DNA of 64,000 nucleotides, taken from the NCBI RefSeq assembly GCF_021155765.1, contig NC_060115.1:8660493-8724492 (forward strand), given 5' to 3'. The position numbers were made by a program, and so were the translations under genes. Positions within the stretch are counted from its first letter, which is position 1; each line of letters opens with the position of its first letter. The notes under the pieces were generated by a model. That model made no database searches. It was not told the DNA's origin and saw nothing but the letters and a program-made list of their open reading frames with translations. Source of the DNA: Diprion similis (Eukaryota; Arthropoda; Insecta; Hymenoptera; Diprionidae). Below are positions 13,262 to 51,200 of this stretch, piece by piece.

Positions 13262-16200
13262 ATGAACAACGAGCCAATTCCAATGCCGCCACCTGCGGGT
13301 AGCGAACATTCTCCCGACATGCACATCAACATGGAACGAATAGATAATCCGCACAAACGTTTGAGTCTGAGAAGACAAAGCATAGCAAACGCCGTCATGA
13401 ACCAGAGAAGAGCTTTACTCGGGTAATTGATACTAATAAGTTTTTTTCCTTTTTCTCCTTCAACAACATCGAGTTAATATAAATCTTTCGAATCTTCTCG
13501 AGTTTATTCGAAAACGTATATAGCTGATTCGTCGAAGTTAAGATATTGTGAACTTTCAGGATTCTAAAAGTAAAATTTTTCTCATCATTATCGCGACAGT
13601 GTCAATTTCAATTTTTTTTTTTTTTTATTAATCTTTCTTTGGAATCGAAACAGTATTTATATACTCTTAAACGATATCATTCTTCAAGTAATGACCTATA
13701 TCAGCAGCGTTAATTGCCGTATCGCGAAAGGGGAACTGATTGACTGCATAATTTTTTGACGACCCTTGAAACCCCTCAATGCGGTATTGAATTTTCACTT
13801 ACTCCTGTCAAAAGGTCCATTAAGCATGAGATAGTACAAAAGAAAAACGGGCGTTCCCGTTTGAGTTCCCAGACAGAAATGCAATCGATACGAGATGCGT
13901 TCCACTTTGTACCCTCACAATACGTTTACACACATCCTCGTTCACTCACTCACTCACTCACTCACTCACTCACTGACAGATAAGAGAAATACATGTACCT
14001 ACGTCACAAATGCACTCGGGCAAACGTGTGCGTAAGATGCTAGGCACATAGTGCAGGTCTAGCCATACTACCATATCCTCGTAGGTACGTGTATCGAGTA
14101 TCGGAAACAACGGGTGTAATAATAGTATCTGGAACTGTGGTGCAAAGCGTCATTGAACCTTCGTTCATTTAATCAAGCAAATACAATGGCTCAACAGTTC
14201 CATTTAAGTTTACCCCTCAGCATTCGCTTCCACAAGTACGTATGTGCGAAACTCGATTCCTCGCCTCACCGTACAAGGGCGATGAATAGATGCAAAAAAG
14301 CAACCTTTGCTATCGACCCTCGAGTAACAGAACCGTTGAAAATAGTTCGGAGAGAGTTGTTAGTCCAGGAAACTCTGCGCCGATTTATCGGTTGATCAAT
14401 CCATCCAAAGTCGCCTAAAGTCGTTCGATTTTACTTGAAATGAATCACTACTCGGGGGGGATGAACGTCTTAGCTAACGAATGAACCACTCGAAAAATAT
14501 GAATTTTTGCATCGCGTTTCAGAGCTTTGATGAGCGAACTGGGAAGTAACATATCCCTTCCCTCGGCTGTGTCGCTCGATCACGACTATGGTCAGCCGCA
14601 CGGAAGCCAGCTCTCGATTCCTCATATTCAAGACCATCACTCTCTCCGGCCAACGATGTTGCAATTAACGCCGGTTGCCACAGCTGCAGGACCCTTGGTG
14701 AACATGGACGTCGCGAAGGGTGAGTGGAGTAAGTTTGGACTAAGTTACGTGGACGGTAGTTGGGATGGGGATGAAAACTTGAGAGGGTCGATATTTGGAA
14801 TTAATAAACTGTTCAAAATCTTGAGTCGCCGAATAGCAGTCATTCTGATCAGTGATACTTACTTTCGAAAATTAAGATTTCATTGTTTCATTCTCGCATG
14901 TTTGCAAACTCTTCCAATTCCTTTTCACCCCCACCGGGTAAATGAACTGCTTTAAGCAAGGGTTACGCCTTACTGGGACATATTTTCCGAGAAATTGTTT
15001 GACCTCGGAGGCGCGATTTCCCTGTTTCAGCGCCACCCACGTTGCCGACGCCACCGACGCCGCCGACGCCACCCACGGAAAAGAAGTACAACCACAAGTA
15101 CCAGGAGCTTATGTCAACTCTGAGCACACTTTACGCGAAACTTTTGGTAGTCGTGGGTGTCGCCATACCCGTTACCGCCAGCGTTAGCAAAGGCGTGCCC
15201 ACGGCTTATGATCAGGTCTGTAAAAACATGGGAATTCCAAGCTCAACGTTGTTTCACCGCGTATTCTGTACCCTAGAGATCGAAAAACACAAAACGATTT
15301 GTCCCAAACACTCCGATCCTATCGATCAAAGTGTGTCTTCTCCGACGACTTAAGCGCGAGTTTTGCGCCGACTTCTTGGTCTGCGATTGTGTTATAACTT
15401 ATGGACAAATTCAGACTCGACGAAACAGCAGCTCATATTGTACTTGATGACCAACGTTGACCAACGAATGGATAACACAAATTTTGTTCTACATACTCGA
15501 CAGGGATACTACCTTTACTTATACTTGACAAGTGTGGCATTTGTGGTGATGCTGTACACAACACTGATGAGGGACAAGGCGGTTAAAAGGTTGCTGATAA
15601 AGCACAACATGGAGGAAAAGATCTATGAATTTCCCGAGGATCCAGGCAGACCACCGATAATTCAGGTGATTGATTCCTCGACAGTGTTTTTTTCACGCGT
15701 CAAAACCTCTCTATTTGGAAGGAAGGAAATATTTTACAACGTCGAAAGACGAACACCTGCATTGGTAATGTCGACATTCTAAACATACCGAATTTCGTGA
15801 TACTCACAGGCTCAGCAGTATGGCAGCTTCTGTCTCCGACTTGGCGCGGTTGGCTTTGGCGCTGGTTCTCTGGTCTTCACCGGGTTGCAAATCGGCGCTG
15901 AAATATCGACATCCTCGGGTGCCCTTCGAGCACTAACGCCGGCGGCCCGTCTTCTCCTGGTCACAGCCCAGATGCACTTCATATTTTTGAACAGTAAAGA
16001 CTTGGAACTCGCGAGGCACGGCGCCCTCGCTAAATTGGGTCTCATGCATATGATCGCGACGAATTTATGCGAATGGTTGCAGGTAGAGTGCCAAGACGCA
16101 ACCATGATGAGCTGCTAAAATCGGGCCATTTCGCTTTGTTCGAGTAAAAATATGTCTTTTCCTTTGACAGGCTTTGATACAAGAGACACGTCACGAAATT

Positions 16201-18636
16201 GATCAGCTGGAAAACGAACACGAAAGTCGGCGTGGAATATTGTCAGGACTTCTAACGAACGCGAGTCCATTCCTGTTCCCTTGCACTATTGAGTTCAGTT
16301 TAATTTGCGCGGTTATACTGTTCGAGATGTGGAAAAGGATCGATGAAAAACCGATGAGAAGCGAAAGTCATACAAGATCTATTCACCAACTGAGCATAGA
16401 CTGCAGCAGTGCACATAAGCAAGTGATCTAATCAATTTTTCATTACCACTAACGTTTTGCACGAAGCTTTTTCATTTTCGAATATCATAAGTTTCTCGGA
16501 AAGGAACGAAGCACATATGCGATGAAATCTGAACGATAAAAGTCGAGCGAGATATTCGAACGTCCGGATCAAATTCCGGGCTCAAACGACCCTTTACTTC
16601 GTTCCATCGATATCATAAAGAGACGCGGTAATGAAATGTACAAATAAGATATGATACATTGAACTAATCGATGAACATGTTTGTTGTTGTCTTTCTTCAG
16701 AGGATTGTTCGCCGGTATATTGATCATAGCTGCAACCATACTTAGCTTGATCATGTTCTTCGTATTGAAAGAAGAAAAGCCCGACATCGCTGTGCAACAA
16801 GTCACGGTCCTTGAGGCTTGCATACTGCTCGGAGGTAAATCGAACAAAGTATAAAGGGTGTTTCACCGAAGCGATTGAGGCGTCAATATTATTCGAAATA
16901 ATTCTGTAATCTCCGAAATGACACTGAAATCGGTAATACTAAAATAAAATTGCACTAGTAATCATCAAGGTGATTTAGGATTACAGAATCCCTTTTCAAT
17001 CATGAGAAACCATATAAAAATCTCCGAAATCATGAGAATCGACGTAATCAAAGTAAAAGTTATTTGTCAAGTAACCTCTCGCAATGACTTTACAAAATGT
17101 AAGTAATCATAAAATCCGTAAAAGCATGGTATCGATTTTTACTCCGATGAAACACCCCTCGATATCGATGAAATTAGCTCGCTTGGATTATCGAATAATG
17201 CCAAGAAATCGCGTATCAAGCGATCGAAATGGTGTTCAGTTTTCACGTTAACAAGAAAATCCGGCAATCCTTCGCAGGCATAATGGCGTCCGTGGGAGGC
17301 GCGATAAAACTACGAAACCTAGAACCAAAGCCAGCGAAGGGACAGAACCTGGACGCAACTTTGCTGGCGGCAGCTCAAGCAGGAGTTTACTTGCACTGTT
17401 TGTTCAGCGTGGTGGGAGGATTTCTGACAACTGGTCCACGCTGGGGTATCGCTTTGACCGCCGACATATTGGCACTCGTTCAAAGCACCGTTCAAACATT
17501 GCTCATTAAGGTAAGTGACAAGAAATTAGATGAAAATTTCTCCCGTTGCCTGCGTCAGGATTAGGTATATATATATATACGTACCGTGACGTTGTCGAGC
17601 CACTTTGATACACGCTGTGTTCGCGGTTAAACTGTGCAAACACCTGCCACCGAACGCGGTCGTTGTCTGCCGTGTCACTGCGTTTCGCGCACCAAGGTTT
17701 TGCATTTCACAGCTCTGCAATACGACCGTTCGAGGATTAATACACTACACTAAAGGCCCGGCCGACCACGTTGCAATAACGGGTGCTCCGTTTTCGTTGG
17801 GCAACAACTGGGAAGAAATATCGCGAATTTGGTGGAAAAATTGGTGAAAGGTAAAAAAAAAAAAAAAATGGTCATGAAAATAAACGAAGCTAAGAGTCTT
17901 TATGTTTGGTGGAAACGTCCTTTTTACGTTTACATGCACACGTCCTTATACTATGAGAACGCGATATCAGTGCTTCGCTGCTTTTTCATACACTCTAAAC
18001 CACGTGGTTGTATAATGTGTATAGCTGTTAATCGATTACGATATTGACACATTTTTCGAACATCCGAGGATGAAATACATGATCCGTTTCACATAAATGC
18101 CGACGGTCTGTCTGTTTATGAACCTGCGACAGGGAATACGTGCACAGTTGTTGAGTAAACGAGGGAGTTCGTGATACTAAATACATCCGTTGAACCGTGA
18201 TGGATAAATATTTACTTCTCGAACGTTGAAACGTGAACACATACGTATCCACCTGTGTCGAATATGATGTGAAAAAATGTTTTGAAAATGTAGTGAACGC
18301 GGGTTAATATCGACATTACTTTTAGCCTTTTTTTACTCCCCCCAGGTTGCCTGGAGGCGACGTTCAGCGACGTACGATAAACCGGGAAAAGAGCTAATTA
18401 CCTTCCTGATAGTAGCGAACATCGCGCTCTGGTCGGTAAATACTCTGGAAAAATCTCGAGCTGGAGTCCGTCCGCAGCACATTGAATTCTTCGGTGTTTG
18501 GGCCTGGACGATAATCACTCACGTATCAATGCCACTGGCGATATTCTTCAGGTTTCACTCCGCGATCTGCCTTTTCGAGGTTTGGAAGAGCTGCTACAAG
18601 TACAGACCACCAGGATCAGCTCAAACGCCAAGCTAA
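13262..18636 (+). CDS. Otop: Otopetrin proton channel (otopetrin-like)
   Basis: Otopetrins are multi-pass membrane proton channels; in insects they serve acid sensing. Coding exons: 13262-13422, 14523-14719, 15031-15215, 15504-15665, 15810-16082, 16171-16418, 16701-16834, 17278-17510, 18346-18636 (627 aa, frame closes exactly). Residues 1-120 are a soluble, poorly conserved N-terminus, followed by a Pro-Thr linker (PTPPTPPTPPT, about 124-134). About twelve hydrophobic segments follow, such as AKLLVVVGVAIPVTASV, YLYLYLTSVAFVVMLYTTLM, LLLVTAQMHFIFLN, GLFAGILIIAATILSLIMFF and THVSMPLAIFFRFHSAICLF, in the otopetrin order and ending in the usual FEVWK. The sixth coding intron has a GC donor (16419-16420). 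The start is the first ATG of exon 13227-13422, but the frame stays open upstream to the acceptor, so a longer N-terminal isoform is possible. Family recognised from overall pattern; which insect paralogue is not decided. Confidence 0.93.
13941..13974 (+). repeat. CACT tetranucleotide microsatellite
   Basis: About eight CACT units within the otopetrin intron between coding exons one and two. Confidence 0.9.
16856..17157. mobile_element. Short TIR element (MITE-like) in an otopetrin intron
   Basis: Imperfect terminal inverted repeats: left GGGTGTTTCACCGAAG, right (reverse complement) GGGTGTTTCATCGGAG. They bound about 300 bp of AT-rich noncoding sequence inside the intron between coding exons seven and eight. 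I see no convincing target-site duplication, so the family is unassigned. Confidence 0.5.
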
Positions 18637-39438: not shown

Positions 39439-41306
39439 ATGGCCATGGAACACAAAGATGATCACGGAACTTTGAAAAGCCCGAAGAATCTGAAAACCGG
39501 AATTATCGACTTCACCGCGGGTTCTCTCGGTGAAAACACATTATCTCCATTTTAAACTATCAATTTTTTTTTAGCTTATTATTTAGAAAAAACGAGCCAA
39601 TAGAGCTTATCATTGCTTAAATTTTTAATTTTATTCATTTATTCATTAGTATCCAAACAATCGGACGCACTTTAACTTAAAAAATAAAAATAATAACTTG
39701 AACCTTGATCTTCGTTTAATATTGACCTCTTTCTCGGGTCTCGACTGTCATACAGAGATAGACACTTACACACATATTTTCTCATCAAAGTTTCAGTAAA
39801 TTGTTTGTTTTTGTCAGATGTTCACATATCTCTCCTACTTTTTTTCCTTCTCTCTCTTAGATTGAGTATGATTATTATCTCCTTACTCCACAAATGTTAT
39901 TTAATTTCATATATTTCGTATCATAAATTTTGTTTTTAATCATTTTTTACCTTTACTCATGATATTAGGTGGAATAACTCTGGTCTATGTTGGACAGCCG
40001 CTAGATACAGTGAAAGTAAAGATGCAAACATTCCCCCAATTGTACAAGGGGATGGTAGACTGCTTTATGAAGACTTTGAAACAAGACGGTATAGTCAGAG
40101 GTTTATACGCAGGGACTATTCCTGCACTCGCAGCAAATGTTGCTGAAAATTCTGTATTATTCGCAGCTTATGGACTGTGCCAAAATGCAATGGCTAATTT
40201 AACAGGTAAGAAATTAATTACGTGTTTTAACAAATAACAGACAATAGTTTATCGACTTTAGATATTTTTTAAGTTGAACGAGTCACTTTACTCGAATTAC
40301 TTAACTTGTCTTATTTTGATTTCCTAATTTGTGTTTTCTAACAGGTGTTCAGAAAGTAGAAGATTTGAGTTTACTGGGGAATGCCTGGGCTGGTTTTTTT
40401 GCAGCATTTTTTTCATCCTTATCACTTTGTCCCACGGAACTGATTAAATGCCAATTGCAGGCTATGAGAGAAGTTGGCACACAAAAAGCAGCTCCAGGTG
40501 AACGTGTTGTATGTAGGAATAGTACATTGAAAATTTTTGTCAAAAAAAAATGATAAAGATTCTCATCGTGGTATGTCGTAATAATTTTCATGGGAAATCA
40601 CATGTATAAGAAAACGGGTTATACTCTTGCGATTGAAAATTAGACACACTGATACTATGATATTTAATTTCACAAACTCGTGTACAATAATATAATTTTC
40701 AATGTCTTTTACAGAATTTTATTGGACCCTGGCAATTGACAAAACAAATTGTACGTGCAGAGGGTCCTCAGGGCTTATTTAGGGGCCTTTTATCTACCAT
40801 TGGTAGAGAAATGCCTGGATATTTTTGCTTTTTTGGTGGTTATGAAACGACGCGACAATTGCTTGCAAAACCAGGACAAAATAAAGAGGATATTGGCTGG
40901 ATTAATACAATGATAGCTGGAGCTGCCGGTGGTGTAATATTTTGGCTTGTCATATTCCCAGCTGATGTAATTAAAAGCAGAATACAGGTTTGTTAGGCAT
41001 TTTTATTTCTTTCTTTAGGGTTTCGCTAAGGGTTTATACCCATCTGCACCCTATTTCACCACGTCGGCTAAAGCCAAGTTAAATTATTTGGAACTGTACA
41101 TTCTAATAATTTGTCTTGTTATGCAGGTCCAGAATCTGAGAAAACCGGTGTATATTATTCTCAAAGATGTTGTTCGAACCGAAGGTATCGGTGCTCTATA
41201 CAATGGCTTAAAACCAACATTAATCAGAACAGTACCCGCTACCGCAACACTATTTGTTACATACGAATATTCGAAAGGATTGATGCTCAAGTATCTCGAT
41301 GATTGA
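39439..41306 (+). CDS. SLC25A15: Mitochondrial ornithine transporter (SLC25A15/ORC1 type carrier)
   Basis: An SLC25 carrier of the inner mitochondrial membrane; this subtype exchanges ornithine/citrulline and related basic amino acids. Coding exons: 39439-39529, 39969-40205, 40345-40508, 40715-40987, 41127-41306; 945 nt, 314 aa, close to the usual ~300. The three Px[DE]xx[KR] signatures are all present: [11 protein letters not shown] at about 40-50, [11 protein letters not shown], and [11 protein letters not shown], each opening one of three tandem ~100-residue repeats with two helices. The [22 protein letters not shown] segment and the C-terminal [20 protein letters not shown] match the ORC1 branch. 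The exon-three donor is taken as GTATGT at 40509, not the nearer GTGAAC at 40498, because only the former keeps frame with [11 protein letters not shown]. It is convergent with the FASTK-family gene. Substrate is inferred from family resemblance. Confidence 0.93.
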
Positions 41307-41787: not shown

Positions 41788-44620
41788 TTATTGGTCAAGA
41801 ATTTTCTGCTCCAAATACTTTTTCTGAATCAGCTGTCTCGAATCCCATTCATGCCATGATACCTGCAAAGTTGAATAGGTCAAAATCAAATCATTATCAC
41901 AGACCATGATTATGCGTTTATATGTTTTTGATATGGCGAACAGAATCTGTTGTAATGAACGTAGCTTTTTTTCACTTGATATATAAAAAAGATTCTACCA
42001 AGAAGACGTACAATAATTGGCTTGTATCCTATTTTTTCCAACAGCCTAATTTTAGTGAGGTCTTTGCCAAGTAGAAGATTAGTGTTCTGAATGAAGCAAC
42101 CAGGTGTACAAACGACTACTGCAAGCCATTTGCATCCTTCGGGATATATTTTTGGTGCTCTTTTGATTTGTCCGAAAGGAATTTGACCCATTATTTGTTT
42201 CACGGGAAGTGGTGAATTATTCTTATCCAAACAAATAATCACATCTCTATCCACAAATTGTGGTAACACCAAATCTAGATGCATCATTTCACTCGAGCTA
42301 AAGATTGCCTGGAAAAATTTTTTGTAATTAATGTGTTAATTTTTCGCGTTGATCCAATGGATATGTGAGAAAAACGTACATCATTGCAATTCAGTTTAGT
42401 ACAGATTTATCAATACGAAATAATTTTGTAATAATTAACCAAACCTCAAGAGTATTCATAATATCAACCGTAAGCTTGTTTCGAATATTCAACTTTGTAG
42501 TATCTTTGTTTGGCGTTCGGGAAACATTTTTCTGCAAAATTAACACAAATATACGTATATGTAGATACATGATATGAAAACACTAATTGATGCTTCCCAG
42601 AGAGTTCCTTGGTTAATTCACACTACCTTAGTTATCATAGTTCGTGACTTTATGTCAAGTCTTGGGCCTGTGTAGTCTGGGACTTCTATTTCAACATTTG
42701 CATCAATAAATAATATTTGAATTGGTAAGCTGTATGCTGTTGGCCCATATGCCAACCTAAGATCATTAGGGTCCAACACCATTGTGATCAAATCCTTTGG
42801 ATAGACGTTCACAATACTAAGGTATTGCAAACAGTTAGCCAACGAACTTATGTATCTGTTTTAACAAAAATAAATGGTGTGACAGACTTATAATTGGGTC
42901 AACACATACAATTGTCTCTGGTAGACTTGAAATGGAATTTATCTGGCATTTCAGTGAAAAGAGAGTTATAGTTTGTTTGGCAAAATGAACGTACCTCTTT
43001 AATTCTTCCGTCCTACTGCTATCCCTTAATTCATCTAGGATACTTTCATAGAAGTCAGGATACTTGTCAGGAGTGAAATTAAAGCAGGATGCCCCAAGCA
43101 TTAAACGCTCTAGGTCCTTCAGCCTGGCGTTGTTCTTAGTCTCGGTAAACCTAAGTTGATTTTACACATTAATCTGTTAATAAACCATAAACGCGTCCCT
43201 TGAGAAGACAGGATTTTTAAGGGCTATTGAATCTTTCGGGAATTACGATGTTGAGTTTGCCTCTGAATCTCACCTTTTCATACAAGCAGTCAATACCTCT
43301 GTATGATAGAGGCGGAGCGATACACAAGTTGCAACAATGTGCACTACGGCTTGCACCGAAAGTCTGGGTATTTGCGGTAGGGTAGATGAAATTAATTTCT
43401 TAATCATGTCAGACCCTTCCTGAATATTAGATGAGAGCCTGGGAAATGTAGAGGCATTAAAAATAATAACGTATCATAAATAATGATCGAAAGTCAGATC
43501 ATAAACTTGATCTACATATGTACCTAAAATTAACAGTGATATCAAACATTCTTTTATGCTCTAGGGTTTTAGACAGCCGATCATCTCACCTTATGGATTT
43601 CATGATAGATGATAGGCAAATTTCATTGATGGTATCAATATCTTTGATCACTCGGTCGATTATTTTCACCAATAAGTTAGGGTTCCTAATTGGTGTTTGG
43701 GTTTTAAAAAATCCCATTGATACGATGGCCAGCTCGCTAATATCAAGTTCGTCGACGCAAGACGTAAGATGGTACTCAAGATTGAACATACTACCAGGAC
43801 GTACTCGACAACAATTAACATAGAACATAAATTGTACTAAATTAATTGGCGTCAATTTGCTCGGCTTAAGAATATTCTTATTCATAATAAACCAAGAGAA
43901 GTCCGTGTACTTGAGGAGTCTCCAGGAGAACCAATGGTCACAGAAATACAGCGCCTTGTTCGGCGACCAGTTTGGAGCTCGACGTATGCAGTCCTTGTCC
44001 AAAGCTTTGTAAAATGATTCGAAACTTCGGTCTTGCCTGTGGTGTTTCAGAGGCCAGAGAGTGACGAATCGTAAGACGTCGCTGAGTTCAGAGTCCGTGA
44101 ATTTCTTGCAATTTTCTATTAAATATCTGATAAATTTACAATACTTTTCATCGGTGATACACTCGCCATTTTTCTTGGCGTAGTACGATATCCTCTTGAA
44201 GGCATAAACTATCTCTTCGATAGGTAACCCCTTCCAGCTCTTATTCAAGTAATTCTCTATTTCCTCCTCTGCTATCTCCTCGGTGCAGGCTGGCAATGGC
44301 TGGACCAGATTCTCAGCGTAAGCTTCTCTTGCCTCCATAATTGAGTGCGCATACTTCTCTTCGGCGTTCTCGAAAACCTCCAAAGTTGGGGGAACTTGAT
44401 CCGATTGTTCCAAGATTCCATGATTTGTATTACTCGCATATTCATATTCCACGGTACGACTTGCGGTACAATTATTTCTCACATTTTGAAGCAACGTCTT
44501 CTTCTTATTTTTTTCCACGACCCAACTCGACGCCGCATTGTTGGTTATTTGACGTTTACCCACGCACCTTCTAACAGTGATAAATACCTCGCTTCGACGC
44601 CTCAATAGATGTCTAAGCAT
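41788..44620 (-). CDS. FAST-kinase-domain mitochondrial RNA protein with RAP domain (FASTKD5-like)
   Basis: FASTK-family proteins are mitochondrial RNA-binding factors that process or stabilise mitochondrial transcripts. Coding exons in transcript order: 44620-43590, 43438-43274, 43150-42995, 42855-42627, 42531-42445, 42308-42012, 41862-41788; 2040 nt, 679 aa, all GT-AG and in phase. The N-terminus MLRHLLRRRSEVFITVRRC is Arg-rich and lacks acids, as in a mitochondrial presequence. The middle is alpha-helical repeat-like (FAST_1/FAST_2 type), with WSPNKALYFCDHWFSWRLL and NLVQFMFYVNCCRV. The C-terminus, about 575-660, is a RAP domain ending IGYKPII-VSWHEWDS, with the last 75 nt in their own exon. 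Length suits FASTKD2, 3 or 5, and I cannot choose the member with certainty. The 107-codon plus-strand frame starting opposite the 5' end (44632) looks like chance. Confidence 0.85.
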
Positions 44621-45757
44621 AACTTGTAGCTATGAGAACGAAGTTTAAAACAATGTTAAGGAAATATTCACACGACTCAGTTTCTGCTGGGGAGTACATC
44701 AAGTTCGCTGTGTTCACAGGCTTAGAAAGATTGAGATTGATTCCCTGGCTAGTATTCGATTTGAGGTTATGTGAGAAAAACCACGCTGCGCGGGTTCTCG
44801 AACGCGAATCTCAATGGCCCACGTGTTTCTGTCGATCCCGCTATTCAATGACTATTCAAATTGTGATATTCGCCCGGTCGGTAAGGGTAGGAGTACTACA
44901 TAACCTTAAATACAGATACGGAATAAACCTGTTTGTTCCCTCTTTGAAAAGATGATCTGTTAAGTCGAACTTTAACTCGTCCCAATTAGAATAGCACCGT
45001 GTTTAAATTCTTCATCAATAAACACTGAAAATCCCAGAACCCGGAGCGAATTATGAACTAGATTTTCCTGCAAATTATTGAATGATAATGAAGTGTGAAT
45101 AAATTCATTTCATGTCCAACAGCCAGAAGTCGATTTATTTCACGTACAAACCTCGATACATATTTGGAAAAAGGGTTTAGGTCTAAATGTTGCTCTTCTT
45201 CGACTTTATTTGTGACATAGTAATTGTCATGTATTGTTCAGCTCAATCCAGACTCTCGAAAGCCTTATCCTACAAGATATTGGTGATTTCGAAAATTTTT
45301 AAAGCAGTTCGCTTACTGCGCAGTATTTCTCGCCTTGTCCCCCCCTTTTTCCATGCCTGCCTTAAATACAGTTTCAAATTTTTCGACTGAACGAGGTCGG
45401 TACTCTCTCTACGACATTTGTGGCAGAGTAATATATGCAATAACGTTATAACATACCCTCCATACTTGTCAATTCCAGAAACAGCATAACAATCATAACA
45501 TATATAATATACACATGTATATATATATATATAATAGTTTCATATCATGGGTACCGATTCGCTTTAATGATGCCAATTATAACAGGTTATACAATTATAC
45601 GTTTACGTACACGTTCGTCATTTTTTGGTTTTCAATTTTTAGAATTCTTTCAGAAAGCTTGCAGGACAAGTTGTACGTGTATATATACAAGAATATTGTT
45701 GTTGAGTATCGAAAAAATTGATTCGTAGGTAGATTACACGAGCTCATTGTTAAAAAA

Positions 45758-47158
45758 TTAATAGTCATCGCCGATCACGCTACTTCCCGGAAAATTGTCT
45801 TCGTTGAATTGTCCTTTGTTCCCGCCATTTTTCTCCTGGACTTGGGTCATGTACCAGTCGTAAACTACGTCGGGATTCAAGCCCTGAAAAAGAGATGAAA
45901 AATATCGATCAATCCCCACTTCGGAGTACTTCATTCAATTATGCAAACACGACGTTCATACTCGTGGAAAAAAATTAACACTTCCTACTGTTTTTGGCCG
46001 AAAAAAGATCCAACTTTGAAACGCTGTAACTTTGTGCAAATTGCAAGTAGTAAGTTGAAATAGAAACAACAGCAATGCTGAAGATTTTTGCTTCAAGCCC
46101 CAATTTCCAGGTTTAATCTCAGGAATTTTGCCTCGAGAAATCCTATCTCAAGTCAGTATTATCAAATTTGTAAAGTGAACCGTTTCGACTTCATGCACCC
46201 GGTCATACACAGCGAAGAGAATTGTTTTTATATTTTCAAGATAACCATTTTATAACACAGATTTTTCCCTTCAAATTGGTTTCTTTGAAATTTGTATACG
46301 ATTTCTTCTCGTCAAGTTATAGAATATCAAAAGAAATAGTGTCCGATAAAATTCGATCCCATGTAACCAGCGAAAATCTAAAAAAAAAATTCTTTTCATA
46401 ATTTATAACTCCGCGAAGTCAAAGGTCCACTTTAAAAATTTCTCATATATGACTTAAAAAAAAGAATTACTTGAAAAAGAATGCGAACAAACAAAATGTG
46501 GAAAACAGAGCTTGAAGCCAAGATTCTCACTTTCAAAATTTTTTTCGATTTAAAGTTCTATTTGTAATTTACGCAAATTTACAGCGTTTCAAGCGTTGGG
46601 CCTTTTTTCACAGAAGAACGAAGGGCCCAATTTTTTCCACTCACGTACATTGCCTTTATTTTATTCATCATCATAGTTACCCTGTCCAGTAGTGCAGTCA
46701 AAAGTCTCGATCTGTCGTAGTTGTTGTCGATATTGTTGCCGGATCGCGAGGAATGAGAAGACTTCCTTGAGCTGTCGGTCATTCCAAAGAGATCCTCGAG
46801 TCTGTGTGCGGTACGATAGTCAACTTCGTTCGTTGGAGACGACGATCTTTTACTTTGAATTCCCCGGCATTGAGGATGAAACGGATATTGCCTGTGGATG
46901 GAAAAAATTTCTGTCATCTTATGATTGTATTTCCAGAGAGACGAATTTGAAAATAATGGAGGAATTTCTCAATGAAATCGGAAAAAACCTACCAAATTTC
47001 AATATTATATTTGAAATAGAATTTTCTACAACTTACAGGCAGATCTCACCGATGTTCATCTGCCTTCCCTCTCGCAATCTGGGAAAATCGGCATGTATCA
47101 AGCTCGCCGAATAGCAGATAAAAATTCCCACGACGAAAGCGCATCTTTGAAAAGTCAT
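45758..47158 (-). CDS. Elevenin-like neuropeptide precursor
   Basis: Elevenins are disulfide-looped neuropeptides first known from mollusc neuron L11; in insects they act through a G-protein-coupled receptor, and in a planthopper they affect pigmentation. Coding exons in transcript order: 47158-47037, 46891-46645, 45883-45758; 495 nt, 164 aa, in phase. Residues 1-23 form a signal peptide (hydrophobic CAFVVGIFICYSASLIHA). The candidate peptide is QMNIGEICLQYPFHPQCRGI, with Cys40 and Cys49 eight residues apart followed by Arg-Gly-Ile, as in the family pattern Cys-x8-Cys-Arg-Gly. It is followed by Gln-Ser and a Lys-Arg cleavage site at 55-56. No dibasic site precedes it; Arg32 before Gln33 is the likely monobasic cut. 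The remaining ~108 residues are a hydrophilic spacer with an acidic tail. An acceptor at 47163 shows that at least one more 5'UTR exon exists. Orthology rests on the short motif and architecture. Confidence 0.75.
45958..46648. repeat. Long imperfect inverted repeat filling intron 2 of the elevenin-like gene
   Basis: Arms at about 45958-46150 and 46490-46648 are imperfect reverse complements. The best core is TTGAAACGCTGTAA at 46016-46029, matched by its complement at 46579-46592. A further match pairs GTGG plus an A-run plus TT near 45964 with the same string, on the other strand, at the exon-2 donor (GTGAGTGG then A-run). The central ~340 bp is AT-rich. It resembles a foldback or MITE-type insertion. 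Confidence 0.6.
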
Positions 47159-47617
47159 CGTCCCTGGAAAATAATTTTTTTTCACAATATTAATAACACA
47201 TTTTTAACATGGCTAGAAGACAGATTTAAAACTTTCTTCGTTGGCGCGTGAATCAAAGCGAACGAAATAAAAATGAAAATATAACATTGAAGACCTGCAT
47301 GCTAAAATTTTTTTGTTAATTTTTTTCCTAACCGTTGCGAATTACTTCGCACTGATTAGCCGACCCTGCTCTTGATCTCCTTAAATTCGATCCAAACGCG
47401 TCGCTTCTTCAAGCAAAGGTCGACAAGTAGAAGCTCAACTCAATTAATTAGTTAGTAGAAATTTTCAAGTCTCAAAATTAAATTTTTGATCCGTTTCTCC
47501 TTTTTTCAAACTCGTTACGTCGACCTACTCAGCGTATAAAAATAAACGATAAGCTCGAGTGCAAACATTCTTCAAACTCGTGATGCGCTGCATTAGCGCC
47601 GAAAAGAGAAGAGAGCA

Positions 47618-47627
47618 TTTATATATA
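47618..47627 (-). promoter_or_regulatory. TATA-box candidate upstream of the elevenin-like gene
   Basis: Minus-strand TATATAAATG about 460 bp upstream of the translated exon. That exon opens with an acceptor at 47163, so transcription would begin near 47595 and a small 5'UTR intron would be removed. No clean initiator is seen at the expected distance, so this is only a candidate. Confidence 0.35.
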
Positions 47628-47989
47628 CAGTAACCGAGAAGAGAAATTCGTGCAGTTTCGCAAGATATTTACGATTTCAGACTCACTGTCGCCGTCCCGG
47701 CTCGATGCAGAGTGACGACGCAATCTCATCCCCTGCTGAAAAGCTTATCCCATGGGAAAATAATCCGCTATTATATGCATTGCGATCCAGATACTTAGAA
47801 AGCGCGATCATCATCTTATATTTCAGAATCAATACTGAGCTGGTCCGATTCAACTCCCAGTTACATGATATACGATCGTTTATATCACGTTGCAAGTGAG
47901 ATTTGAAACAAGTCGTGTTTGTCGAACTCTGAGTTTTCTCTTTCAAAGGAGAGAAAGAAGTAAGAATTTCGAACTTGCGACTGTATTAG

Positions 47990-48240
47990 TTAATAAAATT
48001 GAATTTGGTAAACTATAAGATCGAATTTTGTTTCACTTGTCAATCTCTGATTGCATTATACAGTTTATTTCACAAGTAGATAATTAGGTTCACTACCCAA
48101 GAATGGGAATCGCAATTTATATGTCAATAAAGTTGAATTTGTTAAACTAAGATCGAATTTTGTTTCACTTAAGGATCTCTTATCGCACATCGTTTATTTA
48201 ATAAGCAAAGGTTCAATGCGTAAGAACAGAAACCGCATTT
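47990..48240. repeat. Diverged tandem duplication, unit about 130 bp
   Basis: The blocks starting near 47990 and 48124 share AAGATCGAATTTTGTTTCAC together with similar flanks (AATAAARTTGAATTT before; a TTTATTT block, then AAGAAYRGRAAYCGCA after). Two copies, several mismatches and small gaps. It is noncoding and lies about 0.85 kb upstream of the elevenin-like start. Confidence 0.6.
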
Positions 48241-51200
48241 CGTGATAGGGTACAGTTTTCGCAATATAGTTGTCGGTGTCGATATATTATTTTCATCAAA
48301 GGATTATCTCTCGAGCTTTGATAATTAACAGCGTGGGAAGTTTTGCAGGTGCAAAGCTTTTGTAGAAAGTTCCTTAGGAGGAGAGGATGGACCGGTTTGA
48401 CACCCAATTTACCGCATCTGAGATTATATATTAATTCTCCTGTGTATCCTTATTAATAGCACTGAATTCATCCCTTCCATGACAGGGGTGTGAATAATTT
48501 TCGGACAATCGACAATTGGCGAGCCTCTCCGGACTCCTTTTCAACCCAGTTATTTACGTGATATTTGTCGATTTATTACTCCTCCATGCGAATCTCGAGC
48601 AGCACGCGAAATCACATTAAGAAATTCTCTCAAGAATATCGCTTGTACGTGATAACGCGGGTATTAAGTGTGACACGCGATACGAAGATTGATAAATTGT
48701 CGTCTTCTTAATATGTAAAAACGAAAAAAATAAGGCGATAATATTGACGGGCCTCTGACGTTTTCAATATTCCCAAAAACACAAGGAAAATAATAACAAC
48801 AACCACGATTTTATTACTTTTAAAAATAGTTTTCGCACCGTGAACAGCTTGAATGCCTGTTTAATCGTTAAGACGGCGAACAGGCTTATCTTACATGTTA
48901 ATTATAATGTTCTTCCACGTTTCACACTGACCATTCAAAAGCTGTGTACACCATGCTTGCAGAGTTTGTATTGCGCGATGCTTTCTGATTGGTCAGCGTC
49001 CCGTGAGTCTTTTCAGTTAGCGATAAATTTGAAAACAATTTATAATACATTGCAGAGTTTGACAGGAAACTTACGGTAATGAGTGTTTGTTACTAAACTA
49101 TTACTAAACTGATATAGAGCAGTGTTTAGAAAATGGGATGTAAAAATCATCGTTTAACTTGAAATGTATATGTACTTTTGCATAGAAAGTTCCTAATTCC
49201 GAAGTGTGTAAAATTTATTTGTCACCCCCGAGGGATCGTAATTAAGAGCGCAATTTGCTCAGCGTGTTTTGCATTTCAGTTTTTTCTTCACTTAATTCCC
49301 GAAACTTCTTTCTCAAAATAAGACTGACAGTAATTAGGCGCGTTTTAATCACAAGCACGTTAAGAATTCTCTGCAAAATGTAAAGCATTTTTTCAGATCT
49401 ATACTATATTTAAGTATGCGTGGATCGGTGATTGCAGAATGAATAAACGAATGAATTTAGCGATAATGTAATGACATTTCAGTAAAACAAAGTAGCCGTA
49501 GTTTTGTACGAAAACGTGAAATCACTCGTCTGGACTTAAGCTACTAATTACTAAATATAAAGTGCATTCTCCGATTGTGTAATGAGCAATTAAGAGAAGA
49601 GACCATTTTGCAATTACAAGAGGTTTCGATGAAAGAAAGACTGTAATAACTGATACATCAATGATAACGATATTTATAATATAAATAAATATTTTCGTAA
49701 AGAAGCATATTTTTGAGAAGAGAGAATATTTGTTGCTGAACATTCTTTTAAAATGCTACTTCGGTTTCAGTTGCGTTATTCTCGTATCCTGCTAACAAAG
49801 AAGCGACGCGAACGTAGTTTTTCCTTCCCCAAAATCCGTGTCACGTTTCGGGTGAATCTTGATATCTCAATTTTTGTTCGATAAATCAAGTAGGTGTATA
49901 AATTTATTTACCAAAACAATTTCGAATGCCAAAAATTTCAACAATAACGAATAGTGAAAATTTACCGCAAAGGTAAATTAGCGGTTCGGTAACTTCTCGA
50001 AGTTTAAAACACCGAACTTATTGCCAAATTCCGGACAAAATGCACAGATTTTAGAAAAGTCGCAGTGCACTTGCAGATGCCAAGTTACAGACGACGGACT
50101 GGATTGCAAACTTGCCAAAAATTCACCCAACAAATTACATATTTCATATTAAGTGGCTAGATGTGTGTGAAAGATTTTTGCACGATGTGACTGGGAAAAA
50201 TCGTATTCAATTCGAATGCCTCGGTGTAATGTAATGACTGTGAATTGATCGACTCGGTAAGTAGCGACGAGATGATTTTGAATCGAGCAATCCAGTCTCG
50301 TAAAGTATTTTTCGCTCTACAAACTAGGTTCGTCAATCAGCGTAGAACAGAATAATTAAATCAAGCAAAGTCAAGCATAATTAGAGGAGTGAGAAACTTC
50401 TAAACTTTGGTCATTTGTTGCTAATTAGCTATCCAGAGATTACATCTAACACACTTTTGCGCGACGAAAATTCCTTCCCATTTGCTGAATAAAATTCCCC
50501 GCGCACTCACTGCAACGTTGTTTGCTAGATTACCACACGCCACTTCGTTCCTATTATCATCACTACTACTATTATTTTCACCGCCCGACATAGTTTGAAA
50601 TTTACACAAAATTCACGCCGCAGTAGCTCCCGTTTTCACTGCCAAATCCACGCTTTTTACACCCGGTTGATTTCCTGCTTAAGGAGGTATTCTGGTCCAG
50701 AGGCCTAAATTTTACGCATTTTTCTAACCAAGATACAAAAAAAAAAACATTTTTATCATCCATTTGTTTTACAAGACCTTTATTGATGTTTCAAAAATAC
50801 AAAAAATAAAAATATAAAAATTTAGAGGTTGGTAAAGTGGGGACTACAAAAAAAGGCGCGTCCTGGTCGACATGTTTTTGACTCTTGTAGTGTCAAAAAT
50901 AACTGCAACTTCGAAAATGATTTGAATTTAGAAAAATTCTCTTAGAAGTTTATTCTTAAAGGTCTAAACTTTTAAAATATGGAGTAAAAAAAATCCATTT
51001 TGTCTGTTTCCTCTGACTCCTAAAACACTCTTTGACCCTTTGTCTCAGCGATAAAACGGTTCGAAATCTTGTCTGACTTCTAAGCCGAAGATACCGAAAG
51101 TGTGCGTACATGTAATAACATTATAAAACTCGATTGTCACGGTGAATCCGCAAATTATTAATCTGCCGTGATATAAGTGATTAAAACTTTATAGAAAATT

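Follow-up and report, generated by a model that had tools for sequence, protein, structure and literature searches.

An intact three-exon gene that very probably encodes an elevenin precursor

Elevenin genes are easily missed in genomes, the peptide sequence being interrupted by an intron, and the question raised here is whether three small exons at 45758..47158 on the minus strand of the window (the whole stretch of DNA analysed, 64,000 nucleotides long) make up such a gene, as the initial annotation had proposed. We inspected the minus strand over 45000-48600, compared the predicted product with published elevenins and searched the window and the genome for other sequences of the same kind. 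An intact elevenin gene of three exons is very probably present, a real but unsurprising one, elevenin being a disulfide-ring neuropeptide known in many insects and in other invertebrates.

Gene model and splice sites

The coding part of exon 1 (122 nt, 47037..47158, minus strand as are all features of the gene) carries the start codon, the hydrophobic leader, Arg-Glu-Gly-Arg and the peptide as far as Cys40, together with two bases of the Leu41 codon. Intron 1 (145 nt, 46892..47036) lies within the ring coding sequence and is of phase 2, splitting the Leu41 codon immediately 3' of Cys40. Exon 2 (247 nt, 46645..46891) supplies the remaining ring, the second Cys, Arg-Gly-Ile-Gln-Ser, Lys-Arg and a linker rich in Ser and Asn, and is followed by intron 2 (761 nt, 45884..46644, phase 0). 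Exon 3 (126 nt including the stop, 45758..45883) encodes the C-terminal tail, GLNPDVVYDWYM...GDDY. Joined by predicted splicing, the three exons (122+247+126 nt) give one open frame of 164 amino acids plus stop. Both joins are of the GT-AG type: at 47037/46891 the donor TGCCT/GTAAGT meets the acceptor CATCCACAG/G, and at 46645/45883 the donor TGTAC/GTGAGT meets TTTTTCAG/G (slashes mark the cuts). The base composition follows the same division, with a G+C content of 0.467, 0.449 and 0.468 in exons 1 to 3 against 0.283 and 0.334 in introns 1 and 2. Outside the coding sequence, a possible acceptor of a 5' UTR intron, TTTTCCAG (47164..47171, minus strand), was read by eye and ends five bases before the start codon, and a match to the consensus ATTAAA at 45563..45568 (minus strand), some 190 bases past the stop, is a possible polyadenylation signal.

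The joined translation reads, in order, a hydrophobic leader, Arg-Glu-Gly-Arg, the residues QMNIGEI, Cys40, the eight ring residues LQYPFHPQ, Cys49, RGIQS, Lys-Arg, the linker and the tail. The leader was judged by hydropathy, with 11-residue means of up to 2.55. The predicted mature peptide, QMNIGEICLQYPFHPQCRGIQS, would correspond to residues 33-54; its genomic span (46852..47062) is split by intron 1, and the Lys-Arg site follows directly at 46851-46846. The exon joins, the Cys-x8-Cys-Arg-Gly-Ile motif followed by Lys-Arg, and the single Arg in front of the peptide are all present in the sequence as the initial annotation had described them; the Arg is Arg32, before Gln33, and Arg29 lies at -4. 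It had also called the third-exon tail acidic, and this holds in a mild form, a manual count giving seven Asp or Glu against two Lys.

Assignment to elevenin

Published elevenins have two Cys with eight residues between them (PMC10175484, in its available text), and among the insect peptides aligned in PMC5831470 the two Cys and a CRGXXX end are given, in the part of that paper at hand, as the only common features. The candidate has exactly this arrangement, with eight residues between Cys40 and Cys49 and Arg-Gly right after the second Cys in the end CRGIQS, and thus matches the published pattern. Elevenin genes with an intron inside the peptide sequence are described in excerpts of PMC4237046 and PMC6585902, the latter speaking of a characteristic splice site within the peptide and drawing a parallel between this site and the phase 2 intron found in NPF genes. 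The predicted phase 2 GT-AG intron in the Leu41 codon fits these accounts, a comparison made by text description since the exact published site is given in figures. The general plan of leader, peptide and dibasic site is likewise present, Lys-Arg coming after IQS with no Gly for amidation before it and the leader being recognized by hydropathy. Polyneopteran elevenins are reported to end in Lys-Arg without amidation and to derive from precursors of 99-170 residues (PMC7179676, excerpt); two braconid precursors are given as 136 and 151 residues long (PMC7596734, PMC8397052, excerpts).

One feature departs from the usual pattern. Elevenins mostly have Asp ahead of the first Cys, a residue that is highly conserved though not universal, and the candidate has Ile39 in its place, preceded by Glu and not by Ile. 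We have not treated this residue as defining because insect and beetle elevenins are described as very variable (PMC5831470 and PMC6585902, as far as their available text goes). Out of the seven most conserved non-Cys residues ranked in the accessible part of PMC10175484, four are kept (Gly, Arg, Pro and Phe); a fifth, Val, is conservatively exchanged for Ile, as it is in two crustaceans; and the other two, Asp and Ile, are replaced by Ile and Glu. Taken together, the ring spacing, Arg-Gly-Ile, the conserved Phe and Pro, the Lys-Arg end without an amidation Gly and the predicted intron within the peptide back the assignment well.

Database comparisons added no relative. Pfam profiles gave no family for the candidate at E up to 1, from a library that may or may not hold an elevenin model, and there were no matches among PDB sequences at E up to 10. 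Two further collections, neither containing animals as such, were scanned for relatives: viral contigs gave three pattern stretches and bacterial and archaeal genome contigs 20, with none confirmed in either.

Uniqueness and alternative readings

We searched with a rule that called for an ATG-led hydrophobic stretch, a Cys, a split eight-residue ring, Cys-Arg-Gly and a dibasic site at most six codons on, the donor being GTAAG or GTGAG and the acceptor AG. A laxer version also admitted unspliced rings, these without the leader requirement. In the window the laxer rule found a single match, which was the candidate and of the spliced kind, and searching the 269-Mb genome in six frames returned three matches from three candidates, all of them exons of the same gene. 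The three exons very likely form an intact gene for an elevenin precursor, the sole one found in its genome. In dinucleotide-preserving shuffles covering both strands the spliced rule alone was matched once in 2000, and the laxer rule once in 40 dinucleotide shuffles; these figures are not clean probabilities because the candidate was already in view when the rule was drawn up.

A chance assembly of open frames mimicking elevenin, or a remnant whose expression has ceased, would draw on the motif having been picked after being seen, on the match in one of 40 shuffles under the laxer rule and on the lack of the usual Asp ahead of the first Cys. We consider either reading highly improbable, as the frame is intact across three exons with canonical splice sites, exons and introns contrast in G+C, and the spliced rule gave only the one match in 2000 shuffles. 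The idea that the gene encodes the precursor of some other cysteine-ring neuropeptide, for which allatostatin C or CCHamide could be named, draws on the shared plan of a leader, one ring and a dibasic site, and is extremely improbable: Arg-Gly-Ile after the second Cys is a mark of elevenin. CCHamides carry an amidated end, and the candidate has no amidation Gly. Allatostatin C was rejected on the spacing, six residues between its Cys according to an excerpt of PMC10175484 against eight here.

A further alternative leaves the elevenin assignment and the peptide unchanged and concerns the tail. Were intron 2 mostly retained, the product would have a different tail and about 144 residues, and the exon 2 frame does stay open past the donor, as far as a stop ending at 46579. 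A cricket for which three elevenin gene models are listed, one of them unexpressed in the data used (PMC9960350, in its available portion), also lends this reading some colour. It is nevertheless very improbable in view of the good donor and acceptor of matching phase and of the base composition, exon-like in exon 3 and intron-like in the sequence between.

Neighbouring genes and genome observations

Downstream on the same strand lie a frame of 347 amino acids at 44629-43586 (minus), with no Pfam family over the cut-off, and another at 42335-41910 (minus), with a weak RAP-domain match below it. We take the frames within 41910-44629 (minus) to belong perhaps to a FASTK-type mitochondrial RNA protein. 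Beyond them, on the opposite strand, are exons of a mitochondrial carrier gene (39905-41303, plus; Mito_carr, E down to 6.2e-18) and, farther away, exons of a gene for otopetrin, a proton channel (15801-18633, plus; E down to 1.7e-27). The frame 15354-15782 had one PDB match, at E 0.54, which was disregarded.

In the genome at large the TTAGG repeat is abundant: overlapping matches number 10300 forward and 6745 reverse, against 0 for the control pattern. The repeat fits bees, ants and basal sawflies, but it has been reported from 19 insect orders (PMC8977481, excerpt) and so does not point to any one of them. A profile search of the genome gave 0 matches to the Apis_Csd family, a count that does not equal absence.

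Proposed processing and action

From the precursor we infer that the gene would be transcribed and spliced, and its product processed, perceived by a receptor and put to use, along the following lines. The 164-residue precursor would enter the secretory pathway and lose its leader, perhaps after Ala23; nine residues separate this likely leader end from the peptide. Cleavage would follow Arg32 of R-E-G-R, with Arg29 at -4, and also take place at Lys-Arg, after which the basic residues would be trimmed. One disulfide ring would close across Cys-x8-Cys, and the N-terminal Gln might gain the form of pyroglutamate. The peptide would then be released from neurons and act on a Gq-coupled class-A GPCR.

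These steps can be set beside work on elevenins elsewhere. In Aplysia the disulfide is reported to be required for receptor activation, and the elevenin receptors of Aplysia, Platynereis and Ixodes to signal through the Gq pathway in CHO cells (both from excerpts of PMC10175484). In a planthopper, body colour is affected by elevenin through the receptor NlA42 (PMC5831470 and PMC10175484, excerpts).

A class-A GPCR family search of the genome gave 124 matches (231 candidates, 147 scored). The best 30 of these loci were inspected in translation, 17 of them again on the better strand, and none was assigned to elevenin. Two similar class-A GPCR genes, L018 and L021, stand adjacent and in tandem at G000:C13:4657833-4664298, and three related peptide GPCR genes (L012, L015 and L016) lie on G000:C1. 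By eye, we take the receptors of this last group to be pyrokinin/CAPA-receptor-like.

Distribution among insects

The presence of the gene is ordinary because elevenin has been reported from the honeybee, the bumblebee and an ant (Apis, Bombus and Cataglyphis; PMC10175484), from the braconids Habrobracon and Aphidius (PMC7596734, PMC8397052), from beetles, with at least three losses (PMC6585902), from bugs (PMC6250713) and from every polyneopteran order (PMC7179676), all as stated in the available parts of these papers. The candidate is a further member of this already known family. On the negative side, the accessible text of PMC5831470 has elevenin as not found in Drosophila, in Bombyx or in any Chalcidoidea, with a warning about limited transcriptome data, and that of PMC4237046 as not found in the Tribolium genome, which is at odds with Tribolium elevenin receptor work cited in an excerpt of PMC10175484.

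Absence from some insects, to which the initial annotation had pointed in calling a retained copy informative on losses, is thus borne out in what is available of PMC5831470 and PMC6585902; the weight it placed on this was overstated, elevenin being common and one retained copy saying little. We also give very little credence to the reading that the species comes from a lineage regarded as having lost elevenin and that the gene, with Ile for the conserved Asp, is a surviving copy which has diverged and altered its receptor preference. What is gained is one more intact elevenin gene, which would amount to no more than a single data point on the retention and loss of this signalling system across lineages.

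Comparison with known elevenins

The closest terms of comparison are elevenins whose peptides are given in the literature, here in excerpt throughout. With the L11 peptide of Aplysia, the first elevenin (PMC10175484), the candidate shares the ring size, Phe and Pro at ring positions 5 and 7 (Phe5, Pro7), Cys-Arg-Gly and the single-Arg cleavage before the peptide, but it has Ile for Asp before the first Cys, Ile for Val after Gly and a different N-terminus. The elevenins of the crustaceans Cherax (PMC5141488) and Portunus (PMC8449533) have the same Cys-x8-Cys-Arg-Gly-Ile, with FVFAP in the ring where the candidate has YPFHP and Asp before the first Cys where it has Ile. Beside the Aplysia and Cherax peptides together, Phe5, Pro7, Cys, Arg, Gly and then a branched residue agree (PMC10175484, PMC5141488).

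Among insects, the elevenins of the honeybee, bumblebee and desert ant (PMC10175484) and of the braconids (PMC7596734, PMC8397052), likened here by description only, have Cys-x8-Cys with Arg-Gly, an intron in the peptide and a similar precursor length. The 164 residues of the candidate precursor fall within the polyneopteran range and the end is Lys-Arg without amidation in both, whereas the peptide comes directly after the leader in Polyneoptera (PMC7179676) and would be set off from it by a nine-residue spacer in the candidate.
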